Assembly (NCBI GenBank): GCA_946699065.1
Contig: CAMPDV010000039.1
Location: 186,001-250,000 of the forward strand
Reading direction: 5' to 3'
Length of the DNA: 64,000 nucleotides
From: Loxodes magnus
Lineage: Eukaryota; Ciliophora; Karyorelictea; Loxodida; Loxodidae
The notes under the pieces are model-generated. The model was given only the letters and a program-made list of their open reading frames with translations, made no database searches and was not told the DNA's origin. The position numbers and the translations under genes are program-made. This document shows positions 5,735-49,289 of this stretch, one piece after another; the stretch's first letter is position 1, and every line of letters begins with the position of its first letter.

Positions 5735-6100
5735 TTAAAAGAAATTTATTAATTATTCTTTAATTCTAAATTTAAACATTAAATTAAGAAATTATTTTAG
5801 ATTGAATACCAATGAATATGCATTTAAAAACTAAATTGTAAAACATCCAATTACAACTTAAGAACTAAAAGGTTTTTATGAGTAATTTTTATAAGATTAT
5901 ACTTAAATAATTTAGTTTCTAAAGAGAAAAAATAAATAAAGTTTGCAATTTAACTTGGATCCATTAAAGAATAAAAAATAAAAGAATAAATTATATGAAG
6001 AATAAACTAATTCATTCTTATTTAAACTGAATATAAATCTAAAGAATCAATAATTTAAATAAGCATGCTTTATAAGGGAAAAAATCGTTAAAAATTATAA

Positions 6101-8761
6101 ATGAAATATTCATTCTTCATTCTAACGCTTCTTTTCCTCATAATACAAACTAGAAGACTCTAATCTGATTGCTTCGAAGGTTGCTAAACTTCCTGAATTG
6201 GAGATGGTCACTGCGATTGGGCTTGCTATCGTCCTGAATGTAACGATGATGGAGGTGATTGTGAAAGAACTTACTGTAGCTATGATTGCAAATGGGCTTG
6301 AACTGGTGATGGAAAATGCGATGTAGGATGTTAAGTCGAAAAATGTGATTTCGATCTTAATGATTGCAATAATGGAACAGATGAATCAATTTATTGCTAT
6401 AAAGATTGTAAGTGAACATCAATTTAAAATGATATCTGTGAACTAAACTGCTTTGTTGAAGATTGCAGCTGGGATGGAGGAGATTGTAAAGATGATGGAG
6501 TACCTTTAACTTCATGTGGAACTGGATGTGCTGTCGAGTGGGAAGGAGACTTATGATGTGACTAAGCTTGCAATATTGAAGAATGTAACTACGATGGAGG
6601 AGACTGTAATACTTAAACCATTGATAATTTATATAATGGTTATCCAAGTGGTTATTGTTCAAGTGGCTGTGCAATTAATTGGATAGGAAATTATGTATGC
6701 GACTAAGCATGTAATATTGAAGTCTGCTAATTTGATAAAGGAGATTGTGATCTTACTTATTGCGATTCGAGATGTCCTGAAAAGTGAATAAACGATGGAA
6801 AGTGTGATCTAGCATGCTTTGTAGAAAAATGCTAATATGACGGAAACGATTGTAGTAGCGGATCTGGAGGATCAGTATTTTGCAATACAAATGGATGCGC
6901 TTGGAGTTGGTTAGGAGATGGACACTGCGATAGTAAATGTCTTGATGAATCATGTGGATTCGATTATGGTGACTGTCCCTCTAATAATGCAGTAACTGAA
7001 AGCGAATGTCCTAATAGTTGTTTCTGGTAGTGGCTAGGTGATGGATCCTGTGACTAAGAATGTAATTGCGAGAAAAAAAATTATGATTATGGAGATTGTT
7101 AAAGTCAGTCTGCAAAACAATCTGGAGAAGAAAGTGAAAGTCTTACAAGTGATGAATTCTGCGGATATAGCACTAAACTAGCTTGTGCAAAAAGTGATGA
7201 TTGCCAATAGAGTGGATGTTCTAACTAAGTATGTACTTCTGTTTCTGATTCAGTAGTAACTAGCTGTGAATATAAAGAATGCTACGACAGCTCTAAATAT
7301 TCTAAAGGATGTTCTTGCTACTAAGGTTAGTGCTAATGGACCGATTAAGGAAGTGAAAATTCAGAGGAATAGTAAAATAGTGGTTGGACTGTTCAAGAAG
7401 AAAAATAAATAAATGAATAAGATAAGGAAGATACACAACCTCTTGATGGCACTGTTTAGCAAGTAAATTTCACTGATAGACTCTACTTTTTCTGGATAAA
7501 TCAGAAATAAACTTCAGTAATAAAATCAAAATGCAAATTAGATGGAACAGAATGCGAAATAACAATATTTTTCACTCTTGATAAAAGTGACGATCAACGA
7601 AGATTAAGTAATGCAAGAAGATTAGTAGATTTTGATACTCAAATAACAGCTTATAACTTTGTAGTTTATATGAAACCGATTATTTGTAATGAGAAAATTT
7701 GCTCTTTTGGTTTTGATTTTAAATCCTCTACTTATGATTTTATAGTTCTCAATACAGATGAGAATTTAGAAATTAAAGAAGCCGTTAAAGTTAATTATGA
7801 GACTTAAAACAAAACTTACACCAACTAATGAAATTATGATTTCAATAAAGAAGGTGAGGTAGTGGCAGCTTACGTCGATGATACCAAATTTTATGTAAGC
7901 ATTTATGATTCTGGCTTGATACTTTAAAATTCTGCTTATATAAATTTATGCTAAAACTGCGATGGAAGAGTATAAGCTGTGATCTGGGTACAAGAATATG
8001 TAGTTATCGTAGCAGATGGATTAGTAAAGGGATATGTAATTGCCTTAATTCTAACAAAAGATTTAACAGCAGGTGAATATGTGTATGCTGGATAGGAGGG
8101 TGATAAGTTAGCATATTGGTATGTCATTGACTATACTGCTTATCTGTTTTGGTAGAAAAGTCCAACTAGAAGATAGATGAGAGATAGAGAATTATCAATT
8201 CATTATGGATATTCCTTTTAATAGTATAACATTTCAGACGAAACACTAAATTTAGAAAAAAGCTACAAATTTGGGGAAGAGGCTGACAATGTTAATGTGT
8301 GCATTTCTTAAGGAGTTTATATGGCTTTTTATGAAACTACATCAAGTGAATCAAAAGATCTCATGTTGAGACTTGAAAATTATGCAAAAGATGATATTCT
8401 TCTAGTAAAGGATATAGGAAACTATTAGTGGGAATGCTAAGATATGCTAGTTTTAGTTTATGATTATAAATCAAATCCCAATGATTTATTCTACAAAACT
8501 GTCAAAATGGTAGGAGACACTAGTTAAGGTTATAGGCTTAAGATTAAGATATCTGAAGAGGTCGACTTAAGTTGGAGTGCTGATTTGAGCAAGGAAATAT
8601 TAGACATTAAAGTAACGAGTGAAGGATAAGTATCAATTGCAAAAGCTTCTAACAATAGAGTTCTGTAGAAAGCCGTAACAAAAGAAACATACGAAGATGA
8701 ACAAGATTCTTTCGGAATTCTGCTAGTAGGTTCCTTCCTCTTGACTTTAGGTCTTCTTTGA
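6101..8761 (+). CDS. LNR (Lin-12/Notch) repeat type I surface protein
   Basis: Uninterrupted frame of 886 codons plus TGA. Residues 1-20 form a signal peptide (MKYSFFILTLLFLIIQTRR). Residues 24 to about 330 hold eight Cys-rich units of the form C..GC....W.GDG.CD..C....C..DGGDC, the Ca-binding Lin-12/Notch repeat. In unit 2 the conserved second Trp (WAWTGDGKCD) is TGA, and CDQAC in units 4 and 5 uses TAA for Gln, which helps establish the code. A second Cys-rich patch (CAKSDDCQQSGCSNQVC) and a Ser/Glu/Gln linker follow, then a roughly 400-residue region of beta-rich character without a recognised domain. The last 17 residues are hydrophobic (FGILLVGSFLLTLGLL), ending directly at TGA. They are either a short membrane anchor or a GPI-type signal. 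If TGA 8759-8761 were read as Trp the tail would extend only with AT-rich sequence. Likely a secretory or cell-surface protein; ligand unknown. Confidence 0.85.
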
Positions 8762-27443: not shown

Positions 27444-29118
27444 CAAACATTTTTATATCTAATTGATATATTTTTAGCTAAGTAGTGATGGTTTATTTTA
27501 TTTAAATAAGTTTATTTTAGAGATGATATGCACCCTCTAAAATAATAAGAATTGTGAAAAGCTGGTAATATAATAAAAAAGAGTTTAAATTTGTATAAAG
27601 GAGGGACATGAGACTCAGAGGTAAGAAAATTAAAATTATAAATTTAGTTTTACTAGGAATAATTTAGATTAAATGCTTATAATTTAAAATAATAACTACA
27701 ATACAAGCATCAAACTTTATCCCTAAAATTTAAAATAGTGCTAATGTCCTATTTATAAAGTTAGCATTATTTTAAATAATAGATCTAAAATTTTTCAAAT
27801 AGTATTAAATGAATAATTATGAAAGCTTTGATTTTATTATTTAAGTATTTCCTATTATTGCCTAATATTTAAATTTAAGTGCTATAATTTAATTAAAGTT
27901 AATAAATATATATATATTTTCTTATTTGTTAACTAGTTATTAAAGGCTCCTACTAATATCCCTTCTTATTAAATTATTGTTAATAGAGTTATTAATAATT
28001 ATAAAATTAAAAATAATTAAGCATTTAATAACCTTACTAAGCATTCTCTTTTATTACTAATTATATTCATTCTAGATTTAAATTAATTAATTACTAAACA
28101 CTTATTTTTCTATTTCAGAGGAGAACTATTTTAGTAATTAGATTTAAAATTTGGTTTACAAGATTGATACCAATTAACAAGCATGAAAGCATAATAATTA
28201 GGTTTAAATATTTAAATGGTTTAATAAGAATTTCTCTTATTTCAAGATAATTTAAATATTGTAAGATATATTCCTTAAGTATTTGGATAGAAGATTTACA
28301 CACTTATTCATTGACTAAAGTTTCTTTCTAGTAAGTTGTATGGAGGCAAATAAATAAAAATAAAATAAGTATTTTAATCTTATCAATTAATTATAATTCA
28401 ATTTTAAAGTACTAGCTAATCTTATTATGGCTAAGTATTATAAATTCGTCTAACTCTTTATATCTTTTAATTCTATTTATAAAGTAGTTACTATTAATTT
28501 CCTTCTAATAGTTTAATACTTACTGTTAGTTTAGTTATAGAGATTATTAATTAGCATTATTTTATAAGCTCTTTATTCTTAAGAAAGTTATTCCCTTTAA
28601 TTAATACAGCTACTTTAGATTATGTAAATAGATAAAGTTTAAATAAGCAATACCGCATATAGCAAGATTAGAATAAATAGGGTACTTATTAATATAATTA
28701 CTATTAAATATCTTAGCTAGCTAGAGTACATCTTCCTTAATATCAATCTACAATTCTAATTTTAATAACTTTGCTAGTGTTTATTTATATTCAACTCACC
28801 TTAGTTCTGGTAATATGCTTATGAGAACGTTTCTTACTTTGATTTAATTACTAAAGCAAACTAGGATGAAATCCTTTTAAAGTGCTTAATCGCTTAATAG
28901 AATTTAAAGACATTTTATAGAATCTGAATGCTCTTTCAATACTTGAGTGTAGTAAAGTATAAAGAGTTAGTTTATAAGAAATGAAGTACTTAAAAAGGAT
29001 AAAGAGGATTTAGTTGAGTAATTGAATTAAATTTATGAGTTGATTTTATTTGAATGTTCGTTGAGGAGTCTAACGAATAATTTAAATATAAAGAACATTT
29101 TTTCAGATAATAATTTTA
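27444..29118. other. Divergent intergenic region, possibly coding near its right end
   Basis: AT-rich up to about 28780. From about 28790 to 29118 the base composition is closer to coding, and one plus frame reads well (QDEILLKCLIAQQNLKTFYR, then YKELVYKKWSTQKGQRGF). It overlaps the start of the next gene in another frame and has no independent support, so it is noted rather than called. It may equally be promoter or 5' UTR sequence of the gene at 29119. Confidence 0.3.
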
Positions 29119-31708
29119 ATGAGCTAGGAAAATCCTAACGATTATTTTTAGAGCCAAAAAGAAAGCACTTTGCAGAGCTAGCTGCCTCAAAGTAACTAAG
29201 CAAACGACTAAACTAATGCTACAACTAATGATAAGCAGGCTACTGTTCCTGAGAAAGAAGAAAGTCTTTAAGAATCGGAAGTTATTTTCGAAATTAATGA
29301 ATCGGAAGAAAATCAGTCCAAAAAATCTTCACAAAGTTGTAGCTAGAAGTAGACTCAATAGGACGAGAAGGATAACCCATAGCTTAATGTGGAAGAACCC
29401 TAAAAGTAGCTTAGCGAGTAAGCAGAGTAGGTAGAAAATTAAGAAAAATAAAGCTAAGAATAAATTTAAGAACAAAAGGAATAGCAAAATGAAAGTATAG
29501 TTCAGCAATAGTAAGAATCAACTTAAAAGCCAATTTTAGAAGAACCTTAAACCACTCAAATCAATCTAATTTAGGAGGATTAACAGTAAATTTAGGATGT
29601 ACATACAGGAAATTAATAGGAGAGCGAAAAAATTCAAGATCAAAGTTTGAAACCAAGTGAAAATCCTCCATACTAAGAGTAAAGCAACATTCAAGAAGTA
29701 AGTAAAGAAAGTGAAACATTACAGTAAACCTTGAATTCGCCAGTAATTGATTTGAGCATTGAAACTCAGATCGAAAGTAATAATGTTGCTAAAACTGAAG
29801 TTCAACAAAATTAGATATTGCCAGATACATATTAAAAGGATGAAAAACAAAGTGAAGTCATACAATAAGTAAATTAATAAGATCAGCAAGCAACAACTCT
29901 GTAAAATCAGGAAGCTTAGCCAGAAAACTAGCAATAAAGTGAGAAAAATATTTAAGAAGCCTTGTAAAATATTTAAGAAGCCGAGTAAAATATTTAAGAA
30001 GCCGAGTAAAAAAATTCTCAAAGTCAAAATATCAGTGCGGTTGAAACCTAATAGTAAAAAGAAGATGAAAACAAATAAAATCAAATGGAAGCAGAAGTAG
30101 TAGCAATTCCTGACCAAGAAAATGAATAAAAGACTGAGCAATAAATTAATGAGTAAAGTGTGGACATGTAAATAGAAGAAGCAACTAAAGAAAATATAGC
30201 AAATGGAGTTCTAAATACTTAGAAAGTACTAAAGAAGTAAAAATAAAATTTGCAAAATCTATTAGATTACTTTAATATAGCAGTTGAGCAATTTTAGAAA
30301 TAAATGCAAGACTTTGAATATCTAAATGATTTAAAGAACTAAGTAGAGCAGGAAAGATAAAATTAATTAATATTAAATGAGAACTTAATGTAGTACTACA
30401 ACAAGTATGCAATGCGCCTTGAAGAACTAAAGTAAAAATACATAGAAGATTGTATGAAAATGTGAAATAATCCTATCAATTAAAGTGGATATCAAAGAGC
30501 AGTAGACAAAGCTAATACTTAGATTGTAAGCATTTATATAGGTTCTTGAGCAAATTAAGTAAAAAGTACTCTTAAGTGAAAGTAATTTACAAAAAGCAAA
30601 CTAAATGATATCATAGCTCGATAAGTTAATCTAGAACCGTGATAATTAACTTTTTGTGTAAACTCAAAAAAAAGTAAATGAAATGCTTTGGAGTATTAAT
30701 GAAATGGGAGTACAGAAATTCACAGAATATCTTTAAAGTTTAGAAAACCAAGTTATATTTTTTAGGTAGTTTCAAATTCAAAATGTAATTATTTATATAG
30801 TTTTTTAATTTAAGATCTGACGAAATTTAATCCACTATAGTGGATATGCAAAGCTAGAAACCAATTTTAATCTTTGAAGATCCTTCTAATCAGCAAAATA
30901 ATAAAGGAAGTAAAAAAAATAAGTCAGGAGAAGAAAAATAAAACTAAGCTAATGAAGATTATTAAAACAAAAACTCAACCAAAAAAGTTAAACTTTCAGA
31001 TAAAAAATCTAATAATAAAGATTAGGAAAATCAGAACGAAGTAGGATCTAAAAAAGAAGATCAGGACAAAGAAGAAAAAAAATCATCTTCAAAAGATCAA
31101 GAAAAAGGAAATCAACAAAAATCAAAATAAAAAGATGTCATTAATGTTTCAGATAACGAAGATGGATCCTCAAAGAACGATTAAAGTTATCCTCATAAAG
31201 TGAATGTACAAGATATAAATATGAAAAATTTACTTAAAGCTGCAGTAAAATCTAATGAAGATCATGCGAACGATATTCTAAACATGGGAAGAGGCTTCGA
31301 CGTTGATAAAAAATATTTAGAATCTTTTAATGACAAAGATCTAGTGGAAATAGTAAAAAATGTTTAACAGAAAATGCAGAGCTTCCTTTAAAAATGCGAA
31401 AAAGCCAATGCAAATGAAATTAGTCTCTAATATGACGTAATTGCTTGGCACAATTTAATTTAGTAGATTAAGTTAAGAAAGAAATTGACATAGTAGAAAA
31501 AGTTATTAAAGGAATGCGAGGCCTTAATTACGAAGGTCTGTAAAAAAACAAATCAGTGAATTTTATAAGAGGTTATGGAAATTGATGAATAAAAAAATAA
31601 AGCTCTTGTAAAATGGTTCTACTGGACAAAAAAACCTACTTGGGAGCAATTAGTAAGTACTTTATACAGGAAAATTTGCCAGCTGCAGCACTTCAAAAGA
31701 AACTGTGA
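29119..31708 (+). CDS. Gln/Glu-rich coiled-coil protein, four exons
   Basis: Exons 29119-30525, 30542-30784, 30801-31652 and 31670-31708 (469, 81, 284 and 13 codons). Removing three introns of 16, 16 and 17 nt gives one frame of 846 residues ending at TGA 31706-31708. Residues 1 to about 400 are acidic and very Gln-rich, including three copies of a NIQEAxQ heptad near residue 276; many Gln are TAA or TAG. Residues about 400-560 are a coiled coil (FQKQMQDFEYLNDLKNQVEQ). A Lys/Ser/Asp-rich linker follows (KKVKLSDKKSNNKDQENQ), then a helical C-terminal domain ending WEQLENLPAAALQKKL. No enzyme motif, signal peptide or membrane segment. It resembles cytoskeletal or chromatin scaffold proteins in composition only; function not assignable. 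The intron bookkeeping makes the gene itself secure. Confidence 0.8.
30526..30541 (+). other. 16-nt intron 1 of the gene at 29119
   Basis: GTAAGCATTTATATAG, between codons. Without removal the frame breaks into unconvincing sequence; with removal it continues NTQI|VLEQIKQKVLLSESN. Confidence 0.8.
30785..30800 (+). other. 16-nt intron 2 of the gene at 29119
   Basis: GTAATTATTTATATAG, between codons; restores the frame into the Lys-rich linker. It shares the ATTTATATAG 3' end with intron 1. Confidence 0.8.
31653..31669 (+). other. 17-nt intron 3 of the gene at 29119
   Basis: GTAAGTACTTTATACAG, between codons. Removal lets the last 13 codons end in TGA; without it no TGA stop follows nearby in frame. 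Confidence 0.75.
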
Positions 31709-34423
31709 TCTTACGAACTTTAATTTTTCTACTTTAATTAATATTATTATAAGGCAAGCAATATTTTACTCAACTTTATATTAATTTATATTTAAATATT
31801 GCTATTGCAAAAATTTTTTCATTACTTAAGTTAAAATATTACGAAGAATGTTTCCTCAAGAATAAATATAATAATTTTCAAATCCAGTTCACTTAGCAAA
31901 TCAGTTATAAAAAATCGTTAGAAAATGCTTGAAAAATTGAATTTTTATTTTAAAAATCTCTTTACAATAAATAATAATTGAATAGAAGCAAAATCATTGA
32001 TTTGGATAAAAAGTCTGTTGATATATTGCATTAGCTAAAGAAAATATCAAAACAATCAATTTTAAGATTTTTTTTTTATAGATAAAAAGAAAAAATGTTT
32101 TAGTTCTTAGTCTCCAATACATTTCTTTCGATAGAATTAATTATTTCATTTCTAAAGATAAAAAACAATTGTAATTTTAAAGTTTTAATAAGTTAAATTT
32201 ATATTTCGGAATAAATAATTTTAAATTATATAATCCACTCTAAAGATTATCCAAAAAGTTTACTTAAATGAAAGATTCTATAATCTCTTTAAAGTGACTA
32301 TTATATTTTATTTCTTCAATTTAGATAAAAATTTTATTTAAGTTTTAAAGCTAGTTTTAAATCTTAATAAGCTTTAATATAGCCTAATTAAATTTTAATT
32401 TGAAATATCATAAATTTAGTTATACCTAGACTTATTAATTATCTATGGTATAAGTTTAATTTATATTAAATTATATTAAATCTATTCATTATTTTATGAT
32501 TATTCTTACTAAATTTCTGATTTATTATTAAATAGCTTTAATATTATAATTTAAACTTATCTACATTGTAGATAATAGTAATTAAATTAAAGTCTAAATT
32601 CTAGTTATTTTCTGTAAATTTTATTTTTAGAATTAAATTTATAATTTTAGACTTTAGAATTAATTTAATTATAAAAGAGAATGAACTAAGCTTTTAAAAT
32701 TTATTTCTCAGTTATTATTTAAGAATAAACTAAAAAATAATTTATTTATCAAATTAAAAATATTTAGTTAAATATATTTCACAAACTGATTCTGCATAAT
32801 TTAAGTGCCTAAATAGCTACACAAATTTCTAAAATTTAGTTGCAAAGCTTGCAAAAAAGAGTAAAAATAAAGACTTTTTATAATTAACATTAACTAATTC
32901 TAATAAAATTTGAAGTTGGATTACTAAAAATTATTGGTCTTTAGTTAAATTTTTAACTAAATCTAAAATAAAAAAGTTAAATTTATTTTATTAGTTAGAT
33001 TATAATTTTAAAAGCTAAATGTTTTTCTTTAAGTAAATAGCTTTATTTATAATTAGATCTCTATTAAGCTGTAACTATTATTTATTAATCTTAAATTATC
33101 TAATTTAAAACAACTATTAACTTTATCTTTTAAGTGGATAAGGATAGTAGGGGATAATTAGTTAATGAGATAAATATTTCAAGCTTTAATTTATAGAAAT
33201 TATAAAATTAGTTATTTTGATAATTTAGAAAAAATAAGAACAAGTCTACAAGCTAGATAAGTAGATATTGGTTCTAAATTAAAATTTTTTAATCAAATAT
33301 GTATCTTAAAATATAAAAATTATTTATTTGGTTCAAGCAATGTTTTTAAATAAATTACTTACTTAAATAAAAGCTAAGATTTTATTTATAGTTGCAAGCA
33401 ATATTTATATAATCTTTTATAAAGTTTTTTTATCTATTATATAAAATTATACATTAAAGTAGGCTTACATTGTTAAAAAATTTAATAATAAATAAATTTT
33501 CTCTGCCCGTTTCCATACATTTTTCCCGCCTTAAATAAAAGAAATTTAGTTATGATTTAAAGGATAGAATAAATTATAGAATAGTAACCTTCCTTAGATA
33601 ACTTTTAAATTATTGAGATCTGTTTAGCGAGAATTATATTTAAAATAATTAATTTAACTTTTAATCCAAAAGAAACTAAGTAGATTAATTATATATTAAA
33701 TTACAATTTTATTAGATTAAATTATAAGAAAAGATAAAGCTAAAAGTAAATAACAACTTTAATACAATTATATTCAAATATTTGTAGGACTAGATAGTTA
33801 ATCACCTTATAAAATATTTTAAGTGACTTTATGATTTATTCATAATTCTTTTAAATTTAATTTAATTTTTAACTTTGCATTTTTAAAAGAAATATAAACT
33901 AAAAATAATAATAATTGATAAAATTTATAAATATCTACTTAAAAAATAAGATAAAATTAGAATTTAAGATTAATAACAATTTTCAATTAGGCTATTTAAA
34001 ATTAGAAGCGATGTTTATCTATAATTTTAGTTTCTATTAGCTATGTATACTGATATACCTTATAAAATTAATTTGATTGTAAACTTTTAAAAATAATTAT
34101 TTAGTTTATTTAATTTGTATCTTGCATCTTCACATTTAATAAAAACTATTCAACTAATAAAAGTCTTAAGTTGTTAATTGTTTTTGTTACTCTTTGTTTA
34201 GTTAAAGATTCTTTATAAATTAAATATTTAGATAAATAAGAACAAATTAAAATGCTTATTTTATAATTATTTGCCTATAAAATTTAAACAGAGGATATTA
34301 TATCGATTTCACAGTTAGAATCCAAAAACTAAACTCTTTAACATGTTAATGTTTTATAATAATTTGAAATATCAATTAGGATTATGCACAATATAGGCAT
34401 TAATTAAAAGCTAACAGATATAA
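31709..34423. other. AT-rich intergenic region
   Basis: No supported gene. An ATG-started frame at 31848 reads plausibly for about 30 codons but lacks codon-position bias. A small GC-richer patch at about 33501-33532 (TGCCCGTTTCC, then TTTCCCGCC) stands out from its surroundings and may be a regulatory or RNA remnant; I cannot assign it. Confidence 0.35.
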
Positions 34424-43645: not shown

Positions 43646-44559
43646 TTTGAGCTTCTAAACAGATATATAAAGATAAATTAATTTTAGTAAATAAAAGACT
43701 TATTCCATTAATTAAAAAAAGAATGATTTCAGCAATTATTTTAAATGTCTTAAAAAGGGAGGAAGTTGCTTGATTGAGCTTATTTAATTTATAAAATTGC
43801 TATAGATTTATAAATATAATGAAATTAAATAATAATCCAACTATATAATTTTCTACTAAATTTAGTGCTTAATAAACTCCCTTAAGAGAAATAATTAGGC
43901 TTATTTGTATCACTATTAATTCTAATTTTTTAATTGTCATTTGTTTTCATTATAATTTATTGACTATTACTATTTAAAATTTATCATTCAGATGTATACA
44001 TTTATTTGAATATGTTCTCTTTTAAAAATGATTATTATTTTTTAATATGACAGAAGCATTTTGAGATAAAGGCTTTTTATGATCTAAAGCTTTTTGTAGA
44101 TATAATAAAAATAAAAAAATCTTAAAGGTAACTTAAATTTTAACACTTAGAGTAGATTTAATTCTATTCTTAAAATTTACTAAGTACTTATCTCTTTAAG
44201 TTTATACACCTTTTTAAAAGCTTTCGAATATAATTTTTACACATTTTCAAATCCTTTAGAAGCAAAATTTTATTTTTTATCTAATTTAGCTAAATTTTTA
44301 AAAGTGTTTATGGGATTTCTTTCATAGTTGCTTAGACACAAATTAAGATAGTTCGCAATAAAAATTTAAAAGTGAAAATAGCAACAGAAATGGACTTGTC
44401 TCTTTTATATAGTTTTATTTTTGAAAGAAGTTATAATGAAAAAGAATGTAAGCTTTGCAGTCTTATTATGATTTATTAAAATTAAATATGAGAATCATAC
44501 CATATTTAAACATAAGCAACTTTTGCTTTATAAGCGATTGCACCCATGAATTTATAAAA
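43646..44559. other. AT-rich upstream region of the polycystin gene
   Basis: Noncoding A/T DNA. The last 150 bases before ATG 44560 are slightly less AT-rich, as expected for a promoter or 5' UTR; no specific element recognised. Confidence 0.35.
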
Positions 44560-47500
44560 ATGCAAGAAACAAATTCTGTCTAGCAAACTGTCCTAAGTTA
44601 GGACTCTTTAAATGCTTCAGATGAAATTTGTAAAAGGATCTCTAAAAAAAGCGAAGATCCGAAGAATGATCAATAAGTAAATTCACAGGAAAGCCAAGAA
44701 GAAAATTCTTAAGAAGAATAAAAAGAAAAGTTACTTGTTTAAAATGAAAAGCAAAACTAGGAAGATAATCAAGAGAAGGATCTAAAGGAAAATCAATCTG
44801 ATCAAAATATTTAGTAGACATTAGAAGAAAACGACAATTCTTTGAATAAGTTGAGCAAATTTAACTTTGTAAGTTTACTAAAATATATAATATACTACGT
44901 CTTGCTTTTTATAGTCATTTAAGATGAGTTAAAGTTACATGATTCCCATTTAGTAAACTAATCTTTTTATCAATGAATTAATAAAGTTCAAAGTAAGAAA
45001 TTCTCTGATATAGCAAATTATTATGATTTTTACGAATGAGTCATGGCTGTGATTCCAACTGAGATATTTCCTCCTCAAATTGAAAATTCGTAAGAACGTT
45101 TAGAACCTTAAACAATAAGGTTTTATAATAAAATAATATCAGAAATAAGAATAACTTAGAGAAGGGTTAAACTAGTGAAAAATGACTCTCCTAAATATTA
45201 CCAGTTTTAAAATACTAAATGAGCAGTAGAAAAACTTCCTTCTTATTTTGATAGTTCGATAGAAAGTGATCGGCCATATGGACCCAATTAAAGTTATGAA
45301 TATACAAAAGGAGGTTCTTTCGGGGATGGTGGATTTATTACAAGTTAAAAAGTTTAAAACATCAGCGGAGAAACTTTTGTTGAATTATTTAGTTAGCTAA
45401 TATAAAATAAGACAGTAGATGATCAAACAATAGTTTTTTATATAGACTTTGCCACATACAATGCAAATTTCTAGCTCTTTACTTATGTAATTTTGTAGTT
45501 CGACATCACGCCTGCAGGAATTTGACTTCCTAAAACAATGGTCTAGTCAATGCCAGTGGAGCTTTTCTACAGTAAAGACAGTTGGTGAAGATTAGTTCTT
45601 GAGATAATACTGACATTGGTGACAATTTGGTATATTATATAAATTTTATTAAGAATCAAGGCTTTAACTAAACTCTTAAAGCTTGATTTTGAACAAAAAA
45701 ATCCTTAAAATGACTAGGAATAGCTGGAAACTTAAATTTAAAATTAATAAGAAGCAAAAGAACCCAGTGATAAATCTTCTTTAGAAAATGAAAAAGATCC
45801 GCCAAAGAAAAAAAAAGATGAAGAATCTAATAAGTAGCATAGGCTAAAGGAACTGAAAAAGAAAATGTTCAATTAAAAATGAGCTAAATTTATTTTAAAA
45901 GCAACAAAAATTTGGTTTAGCTAATTTTGAAATATTTTAGAGATGATATCTTTCATGTTAATCTTAGCCGGATTCTGTATGTGGTTCTCTTATATTTAAA
46001 ATGAATTTAGAGTAGATATGGTTGAGACTGATAAATATCCTCTTGGAAGTTACGAAATGATAGGTAAATTTAATGACTTATCAAAGTTTTTCACTAATTA
46101 TAGAAGACTATAATCTATCAGTTTTCTCTGCTTAACCGTTCGAGTGATTAAGTTCATATATACAATTCCTTAAGCTTCCCTGGTTTCTAAAACAATTCTT
46201 TTTAGTAAAGAAGAAATAAAAAATTTCTTAGTATTTATGATGACTATTTCTTTTGCTTGCGCTTTCTTATTTCATATTTAGTTCGGACATTCAATTGAGT
46301 AGTTTAAAGAAATTAGCAGCTCTTTAGGCCACATTTTCTTCATAATGATATTTGAAACTGATAGTATGAGACTAAGTTACCACATAGATAAAGTATACAC
46401 TTGAATATTTTACATTGGCTGTTAAGTATTTTTATCCTGAATATTTATGAGTCTTTTAATAGCAATTATTTTCACTTAATACGAAAAGCAAAACGATAAA
46501 TTTGAGATTTAGCAAGCAATTAAGAAAAATGATAAACATTTCATCTTTAAAATGTGAAGATTTTACAAAATTAAATGAGTTTAATTCAAAAGTTTTAAAA
46601 AAAATAGAAGATTCATATCCTAAGAGTTGGCATTTGAAATCTTTTAACAGAAAATTGAAAAACTAAAGGCAGAAGCTCAAGAAAATAACCAAAATAAAAT
46701 TCTATTTCATTACGACATTAATTTCCATTAAATCTTAGATCAGCCAAACAAAGATGAAGAAAATATAACAGAAGAGAATTTTGAAAAATACTCAACTTCT
46801 AAAAGGAAATAATGCGGGTATAAAATATTAAATTTTCTAATTTCTCTAATTTACTGAATCGTATTATTAATTCTTGTCATTTTAACCTTAAACTAAAAGT
46901 AGGCTTATAATATTAGCCATTCTATTAAAATACCATTGGAAAATAGTTACTTTAATGAAGAAAGATTAACAATGAAAGATATCATAACTCCTCAATAATG
47001 AATTTCATGATTCAAATTTTATATTGAGAATTTTTTTGAATTAAATGACTTCCGTGGACCATCAAATTGATATTTCAATTAAGCAAATTATCTAGTAGGA
47101 TAAAATTTAGTGAACGAAGGCCCAATTTAAGTAACTTTTAGATATTTTTAAGTTGAATAAAATGAAGTTGAGAATTTTATAAAATATAAAAACTAAACAA
47201 GACCTTCCTCCAATAAATTCAACTATAATTCTGACAAATTTTCTGATGAATTCACTTAAGTTATCACTGGCCTCACTACGGGACAGAAATATTAGTACTA
47301 AGCTAACAGAGGCTATAATAATAAAGGTGGATATGTTTTCTACTTTTAACCTAAAAATTTAACGGCCATAAATCTTTTGGCTCTTGATGGGATAGCTAAT
47401 TTAAGATTAAACAGTATGGTAATAGAATTTGTCACTTATAATTCCGATATTAATAACTTCATGTATATAGCACTGATTTTTTAGCCATAATCTTAGGGTA

Positions 47501-48981
47501 AAATATTATAATATAGCGATTATTTGCCTAACAAAATTCAATATTATCGTACAAGTTTGGACTTCTTTAGGCTTTTTTTAGAAATAATTTTTGTCTTAGC
47601 CACTCTCTTTTATATAATAAAGACAGTTAAAGAAATTGCTTAAAGAAATAACTAATATTAGAAATGACAAAAATTAAACATAGATTATTAGACAGAATAT
47701 TTTAAATTTTTAAGATGGTAATCAAAGCCTGAATGAATTAGAAAACTGAATTTCATTTTTAGTACCTTAATGATTCTGGAAATAATTAGCTAGACTCTAT
47801 CGATAATTAGCATAATAAGTTGGATTATTTTTATAGCAGCAGACAAATCATTCTCAAAACTTCCGCTTTCATAAGAATAAGACAACTTTTGGTTTGATTT
47901 TTTGAAACTTGGAAATTAAAAGTTTACGTAGTCATTTATTGCTGGGCTTAATTTACTGTTTTTGTCAGTTAAGTTTATAGTATCACTTTCCGAATGAAAA
48001 GGAATGAGGTCTGTATGAATAGCCTTTTCGTTAGCAACTAAAAATTTAATATACTTCTTACTTGTGATTTCCATGCTAATGTTGGCTTTTGCTAATTTGG
48101 GATACTTTGCCTTTTCACATTTACTCGGTCAATTCAGCACTTTACCAAAATCATGGTTGACCTGCTTTATATATTTCGTGTTCGAATTTGATTATGATAA
48201 ACTGAAGACAGCAGATCCGATCCTTGCCGACATATTTATATTCCCTTATATATTTATTCTAATCTTCATATTTATAAACATTTTCATTTCTGTTCAAAGA
48301 AAATGTCTAAAAATATCACACTAGAAATCCTAAAGAGAGAATATTATAGGGGTATCATGGATGATTAACTTCTCTTATCAAAACTTCAAAAGAAAATTTA
48401 AGAAATGACTAAAGAAGCGAAATTCGAAAGGAATAAAATACAAAGCAAATGAGAAAGAACTCGAAAAATAAGTTAAAGAGTTGATTTCTTTAAATTATTA
48501 AGAAAGGCAAATTCAAGAATTTAAATAAAAACTTGAACATCTAGACAACGCGATTAAGGAAGCTGAAGACCCTAGTTTCTGAGCCAAAAATTAATCGGAT
48601 TCGATTATAGAACTATTCTCAAGTTTAGATTTTTACAAGTTAAAAATTGATAGCTTTATTAATTTCTCCAAAAAAAAATAGTTCTAAGGTACAGAAGATT
48701 ATGAATTGTTGCAAGATTCATCAAATCTATTACACAAGCTGATGATTTATTGGCATTTTAGCAGGCTAATTAGAATCGTTTTAGAAAGGTAAATTATTGA
48801 GGCTGATTAAGAATGTTATTAAATATTTAAAAGCATTGACAATGAATTCAGCAAGTATTAAGAAGTTTTATAATTTAATAGAGATTTTAGTAATAAAATA
48901 AAGGAATAGGAATTTATATTTTAATTACTCCAGGAAAAAAACAAAAATTTACAAGCTTTGAAAGAAAATCTGGGCATTTGA
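44560..48981 (+). CDS. Tandem two-module polycystin (PKD2/TRPP-type) channel protein
   Basis: One uninterrupted frame of 1473 codons plus TGA 48979-48981, with about 21 in-frame TGA codons read as Trp. Module 1: TM1 near residue 105, a large extracellular TOP-type loop to about 335 (YTKGGSFGDGGFI near 248), TM2 near 345, three more segments, pore region SSLGHIFFIMIFETD near 590, TM6 612-640. Module 2 repeats the plan: TM1 near 757, TOP-like loop with RGYNNKGGYVFYF near 917, TM2 near 998, TMs near 1064, 1125 and 1162, pore FSTLPKSWLTCFIYFVFEFD near 1192, TM6 near 1225. The second pore matches the PKD2 F..L..S..T.F..I.G.FDFD pattern best. The N-terminus is acidic and Gln-rich; residues 1280-1470 form coiled coils. 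No EF-hand seen. Polycystins are cation channels, often ciliary, normally four subunits; a double-length protein would need only two. Function and location are inferred. Confidence 0.87.
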
Positions 48982-49289
48982 ATGAGTCTCTTTTAAACTT
49001 ATATCTAACTCTTTTATAAATTTAATCTTTTTTATCTAATCTAAATTAATAGCTTTTGCTCAAAATCTTAATTTTATCCAGATAAAATAACTTATAAAGG
49101 ATATTTAATATGCCTTTTCCTTTTAATTTTAGCCTTAAACTCCAAGTTATTTGATATAGGGCAAACAATAAATTATTTTAAAGCATAATAATCATATTAA
49201 TAAATCTTAATAATAATATAAAAGGATTTAATTTCAGGTTTTAATATTTAATTAATTAAATATTTATTTTGATATTATACTTAGACAAT
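48982..49289. other. Short AT-rich intergenic stretch
   Basis: About 300 bases of A/T DNA between the polycystin stop and the next ATG. Nothing recognised. Confidence 0.4.

Follow-up and report, generated by a model that had tools for sequence, protein, structure and literature searches.

A gene in this window of the Loxodes magnus genome is predicted to encode a protein with 12 transmembrane (TM) segments, consisting of two polycystin modules joined in one reading frame. We regard it as likely that this tandem polycystin, with a layout like that of the two-pore channels, works as a dimer; its assembly and conduction are deduced from sequence. The window, which is the whole 64,000-nt stretch of DNA that was analyzed, covers contig C39 from 186001 to 250000, and the genome searched comprised 705,730,643 bases in 7843 contigs. 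Residues are numbered along P0001, a translation of 1585 residues from 44446-49200 with TAA and TAG read as glutamine and TGA as tryptophan, in which residue 39 is the ATG at 44560.

Table 1. Features of the tandem polycystin gene (positions in the window, residues of P0001)
Feature	Position	Strand	Description
Tandem polycystin coding sequence	44560..48981	+	1473 codons plus terminal TGA; start codon uncertain
Module 1 TM1/S1	44863..44919	+	Residues 140-158; hydropathy
Module 1 extracellular TOP (polycystin) loop	44920..45591	+	GGSFGDGG and YNAN motifs; PF20519, E 3.5e-10; PC2 alignment
Module 1 S2-S6 channel domain	45592..46470	+	PF08016, 35.1 bits (cut-off 22.4); hydropathy
Module 1 S4	46114..46170	+	Two basic residues (R, K) at PC2-equivalent positions; hydropathy, alignment
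Module 1 filter triplet I-F-E	46348..46356	+	Aligned to PC2 L-G-D
Inter-module linker	46507..46818	+	Residues 688-791; conserved in the frame of the tandem protein
In-frame TGA, residue 711	46576..46578	+	Sole linker TGA without a TGG counterpart in any relative
Module 2 TM1/S1	46834..46890	+	Residues 797-815; hydropathy
Module 2 TOP-like loop	46891..47562	+	GYNNKGG and YNSD motifs; aligns with module 1, last part with PKD2L1; no PF20519 match alone
Module 2 S2-S6 channel domain	47563..48288	+	PF08016, 54.0 bits (cut-off 22.4); hydropathy
Module 2 S4	47932..47988	+	First basic residue retained, second gone; hydropathy, alignment
Module 2 filter triplet V-F-E	48178..48186	+	Aligned to PC2 L-G-D
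Conserved C-terminal tail	48316..48978	+	Residues 1291-1511; no Pfam family
Terminal TGA stop	48979..48981	+	Common to 12 of 13 alignable relatives

The nuclear code of Loxodes magnus is given in passages of PMC11441545 as table 27, with UGA as the sole stop and yet also as a tryptophan codon. Because TAA and TAG encode glutamine and TGA encodes tryptophan, with no dedicated stop codon, an open frame carries no evidential weight. The uninterrupted frame, which a preliminary description of this DNA had pointed to, was therefore given none, since every codon can be sense. P0001 contains 22 in-frame TGAs, 21 of which lie upstream of residue 1512. At these 21 sites, 336 of the 413 aligned residues in 20 relatives were tryptophan (136 as TGG), unevenly distributed: 20/20 at several sites, 2/20 at residue 711, and 0/20 at residue 1184. 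Residue 1512 is itself a TGA; the alignable relatives had TGG there in no case and TTT in one, and similarity among relatives dropped past that point, so the end at 48981 proposed earlier stands. Judged by these alignments, most in-frame TGAs are read as tryptophan and the TGA at 48979-48981 is a shared stop. The ATG at 44560 is a plausible start, with further ATGs upstream and an N terminus that is variable among relatives. The description of the gene as intronless was upheld to the extent that no intron was visible in the alignment of the conserved core; a short intron of 3n length would still be compatible with it. A pseudogene was ruled out by the protein-level constraint in the modules and linker.

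Hydropathy analysis of P0001 showed twelve TM-like peaks, six each within residues 140-675 and 797-1281, and an extra peak at residues 1554-1572 falls past the stop. In both halves, TM1 was followed by a loop of about 220 residues with GG and YN motifs and then by S2-S6, which agrees with the earlier description of TM1, a TOP-like loop with a GG motif, TM2, a pore and TM6 in each half. The chain would be ordered as S1, TOP loop and S2 to S6, a linker of about 105 residues, a second S1, TOP loop and S2 to S6, and the conserved tail.

Pfam searches of P0001 at a loose limit (E 1) found two stretches each of PKD_channel, Polycystin_dom and Ion_trans. Analyzed alone, each module exceeded the cut-off of PKD_channel (PF08016), and module 1 also matched Polycystin_dom (PF20519) with 40.2 bits (cut-off 23.6). 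Failure of one half to match the PKD profile had been named beforehand as an outcome that would count against the fusion. All first modules (16/16 members) matched PF08016 and PF20519, and all second modules (15/15) matched PF08016, at an E value of 0.001 or better; from the 21 copies, the first-module set omits three near-copies, L025 and L027, and the second-module set omits three near-copies, L025, L026 and L027. The TOP-domain profile suggested for both halves supported the assignment for module 1, but not for module 2, which alone showed no PF20519 match in 15 members. Its loop aligns with the TOP loop of module 1, and module 2 of the C134 relative passes PF20519 with 30.1 bits; the module 2 TOP loop is nevertheless the weakest part of the polycystin assignment. 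Against solved structures, the best match of the module 1 profile was PKD2 (1.4e-32; best 60 of 90 matches), and that of the module 2 profile was PKD2L1 (7.2e-38; best 60 of 84 matches); PKD1L3 was also matched by both profiles among the matches listed. The two modules were aligned to each other with an hhalign probability of 99.6 and 19% identity over 473 columns. By these profile comparisons, the two halves are homologous to each other and to PKD2/PKD2L1, and chance similarity to polycystins was ruled out by the Pfam and PDB E values. An AlphaFold2 monomer model of module 2, with module 1 as the sole other alignment row, was discarded (mean pLDDT 38.5, pTM 0.19).

We examined the genome for further copies. 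P0001 had at least 32 matches (30 scored of 506 candidates). With L035 (contig C103), which is 30% identical to the window gene, as the query, 33 loci were scored of 661 candidates, and in 30 of these, including the query and the window gene, the match ran through both modules and the linker without a change of frame, with the start of module 1 as a separate piece in 4 of the 30. The other three loci were partial (C640:165934, C91:268830 and C2150). The 30 tandem loci were spread over 19 contigs, with six on C39 and six on C48; all these locus counts are lower bounds. Two pairs, L026/L027 and L019/L020, may be alleles (DNA identity of 98.8 and 99.1%, respectively), and frame breaks late in module 2 of L025, L026 and L027 could reflect assembly error, an intron or decaying copies. 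By this search, tandem polycystins form a family of about thirty loci in the Loxodes magnus genome.

A genome search with PF08016 gave at least 144 matches (150 scored of 299 candidates), comprising 37 same-strand pairs and 70 unpaired matches, where an unpaired match does not equal a single-module gene, as the window gene itself shows module 2 alone there. Thirty of the 37 pairs were in frame, and no groups of three or more modules were found among the matches listed. In the other seven, the modules were in different frames; two of these pairs, C82 and C640(-), may represent an intron, a break or separate genes. L032 (C11) and L031 (C5), with three and one Ion_trans stretches, are other multi-domain Ion_trans channels that match PKD_channel weakly, and the pairs on C10, C18, C23, C56, C75 and C615 resemble them, judged by the matched profile range alone. 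Because some of the pairs are non-polycystin and unpaired matches are not equivalent to single-module genes, family size was taken from the L035 search. One probable single-module polycystin, the very divergent L033 on C8 (end branch of 3.66), was found. A profile scan for relatives of module 2, which covered viral and prokaryotic contigs, found none there.

In the tandem frame, the linker showed pN values of 0.36 to 0.41 and pS values of 0.74 to 0.86 between the window gene and five relatives, whereas its pN/pS in the other two frames was 0.76 to 1.61 in the same comparisons. The tandem frame had the lowest linker pN/pS of the three frames in 7 of 10 pairs, with some bias toward it for divergent pairs because the alignments were built on protein; the three pairs in which the test failed to single it out had 8 to 37 differences and were all near-copies from the C48 group. 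The linker stretch 46516-46800 had a G+C content of 0.235, compared with 0.206 and 0.176 in the flanks and 0.26 to 0.29 in other coding parts. The lowest G+C content of any 60 bases in the coding region, 0.15, lay in the linker at 46560-46619, beside TGA 711. This low point would fit two adjacent single-module genes, in which translation of the window copy stops at TGA 711 and module 2 belongs to a separate transcript, and so would the codon itself, for which none of the 20 relatives has TGG (L028 and L029 also have TGA, and the remaining 18 have neither codon). However, pN was lower than pS for codons 712-791, after this TGA, in all five comparisons, and the frame was kept through the linker in 30 of the 33 scored loci. 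Moreover, TGA 704, at a site where 13 of the 20 relatives have TGG and five have TGA, lies seven codons before TGA 711, although coding TGAs are depleted ahead of true stops (passages of PMC11441545), a 20-codon rule that is weak in the tandem gene, as one TAA lies within 20 codons before the accepted stop. We therefore consider two separate genes very unlikely. The earlier claim of two polycystin modules in one reading frame is borne out by the conserved coding linker and by an architecture common to at least 30 loci.

The window contained no tRNAs and no Rfam families at gathering score in its 64,000 nt. A G+C-rich island at 6002-8001 on the forward strand (0.33) encodes four LNR (Notch, PF00066) repeats (E 1.1e-30), indicating an unusual protein with extracellular-type domains. 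G+C was likewise elevated (0.26) in the region 28001-32902, part of which (30001-32000) is strongly skewed in both AT and GC; a six-frame Pfam search of this region at E 0.001 found no match.

In a tree of 34 rows, the first modules (n = 16) formed one group with support of 96/90 and the second modules (n = 15) formed another with support of 99/99; near-copies were omitted from the tree and the distance comparison. C134 and then C119 branched off earliest on both module sides, and the remaining branching order was supported among the first modules and not settled among the second. First-module and second-module distances across 15 loci were strongly correlated (Mantel r of 0.98, 0 of 10000 permutations as high). 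The separate module groups and correlated distances indicate one old joining followed by later gene duplications of both halves together. Because the outgroups are few and long, the tree is silent on whether the joining was an internal duplication or a fusion of older paralogues.

The two pores had been described as strongly different (FETD against FEFD), which the alignment with PC2 contradicts. The contrast falls mostly outside the filter, and both filters are of the same unusual [I/V]-aromatic-E type where PC2 has LGD, a triplet absent from both window modules. In the main clade, which comprises the window gene and 18 relatives, the module 1 filter was I-F-E in 18 of 19 copies and I-F-K in L013. 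With L025 set aside because its frame is broken at this point, 18 module 2 filters could be read, of which 17 were V-[F/W/Y]-E and that of L023 was V-Q-K. Thus, lysine replaced the filter glutamate in only one module in each of L013 and L023. A mixed Glu/Lys filter ring affects selectivity in sodium channels, and by analogy such a ring could alter selectivity in these two copies. Deeper members carried other filters (LGQ and IGE in C134, LGY and TGT in C103). The loss of LGD was not taken as excluding polycystin kinship, because oomycete polycystins also depart from it (PMC7399828).

On the evidence of the alignments, S4 is a clearer asymmetry between the modules than the filter. Both basic residues aligned with the S4 pair of PC2, which we take to be K572 and K575, were kept in module 1 in 19 of 21 copies. 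In module 2, the first was kept in 20 of 21 copies and the second in none (0/21). The asymmetry is not universal, as the deep member C134 keeps both charges in both modules.

In the assembly that we favor, two tandem proteins would pair to form one pore with four alternating pseudo-subunits, as in two-pore channels. With two filter glutamates in each chain, the pore would have an acidic ring of four, suggesting Ca2+ permeation. Module 2 retains one of the two S4 basic positions, the first, and module 1 retains both, so the two S1-S4 domains would be unequal and gating asymmetric. A fused protein might instead line its working pore with one module and use the other for structure or regulation, the function usually ascribed to PC1-type subunits. 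Such an arrangement would fit the main-clade filters, where an aromatic residue stands in place of glycine in either module and could equally impair conduction, and also the lysines of L013 and L023 and the unlike S4 segments. However, within this clade the filter glutamate has been retained by 18 of 19 first modules and by 17 of the 18 second modules that could be read, a pattern suggestive of constraint on the two modules alike, and we judge a single working module unlikely. If the tandem protein instead paired with polycystins encoded as single modules, L033 in the same genome could serve as a partner, but that protein is very divergent and this kind of pairing appears extremely improbable. 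Any sensory function of the tandem polycystin, whether ciliary or in the gravity organelle of Loxodes, is speculation. Loxodes has Mueller vesicles with a BaSO4 statolith, as described in part of PMC10954788, and a link between these vesicles and the tandem polycystin is likewise speculative. A large channel family in a genus with a gravity-sensing organelle (PMC10954788, in part) is of interest in its own right.

Finally, we compared the tandem protein with known systems. Each module shares with polycystin-2/PKD2L1 (TRPP) the order S1, TOP loop and S2-S6, and these channels were the best solved-structure matches among those listed. The tandem protein differs in having not one but two six-TM modules in one frame of the same chain, a filter of the [I/V]-aromatic-E type rather than LGD, and no cysteines aligned with the TOP cysteine pair of PC2. 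Paramecium Pkd2 is also a ciliate polycystin, with two close paralogues and one distant gene; it is set apart in that Pkd2 in general is described as a six-TM protein, with no tandem form mentioned in the relevant passages of PMC6627415. The oomycete PKDRR proteins are likewise protist polycystins with altered filters (LGA or AG(D/E)), but they carry RyR domains, and no tandem channel is described in the sections concerned (PMC7399828). TRP channels in general are described, in part of PMC9242649, as tetramers of six-TM monomers. A literature search, covering the best-ranked papers in part, with subscription papers and protein databases outside its scope, found no tandem polycystin; tandem entries that have gone unnoticed may already be present in ciliate protein databases. 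The described polycystins that it returned have one unit per protein, and the tandem form appears to be new.

The PC1/PC2 and PKD1L3/PKD2L1 complexes also combine unlike polycystin modules in one channel. These complexes have a 1:3 ratio, whereas the tandem protein joins unlike modules covalently and 1:1. In such a natural tandem, unlike modules come in a set order and ratio, for which PC1/PC2 work otherwise needs artificial concatemers. Two-pore channels (TPCs) are presumed to form a dimeric pore. Each of their chains links two six-TM units, S1-S12 (PMC7312350, in part), and the six plus six TM peaks of the tandem protein follow the same plan. In contrast to TPCs, its modules are polycystins with TOP loops, and no TPC was found among the best 60 of 90 PDB matches for module 1 or the best 60 of 84 for module 2. 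The tandem polycystin appears to resemble TPCs in layout and not to be a member of the TPC family. Tentatively, and with somewhat more doubt than confidence, we suggest that the TRP superfamily independently reached the two-pore-channel layout, in the form of a covalent unlike pair with a fixed 2:2 four-glutamate pore, present at about 30 loci and with Glu-to-Lys changes in one module at a time (L013 and L023). If this is true, the layout that is intermediate between one-module and four-module channels would have arisen a second time.
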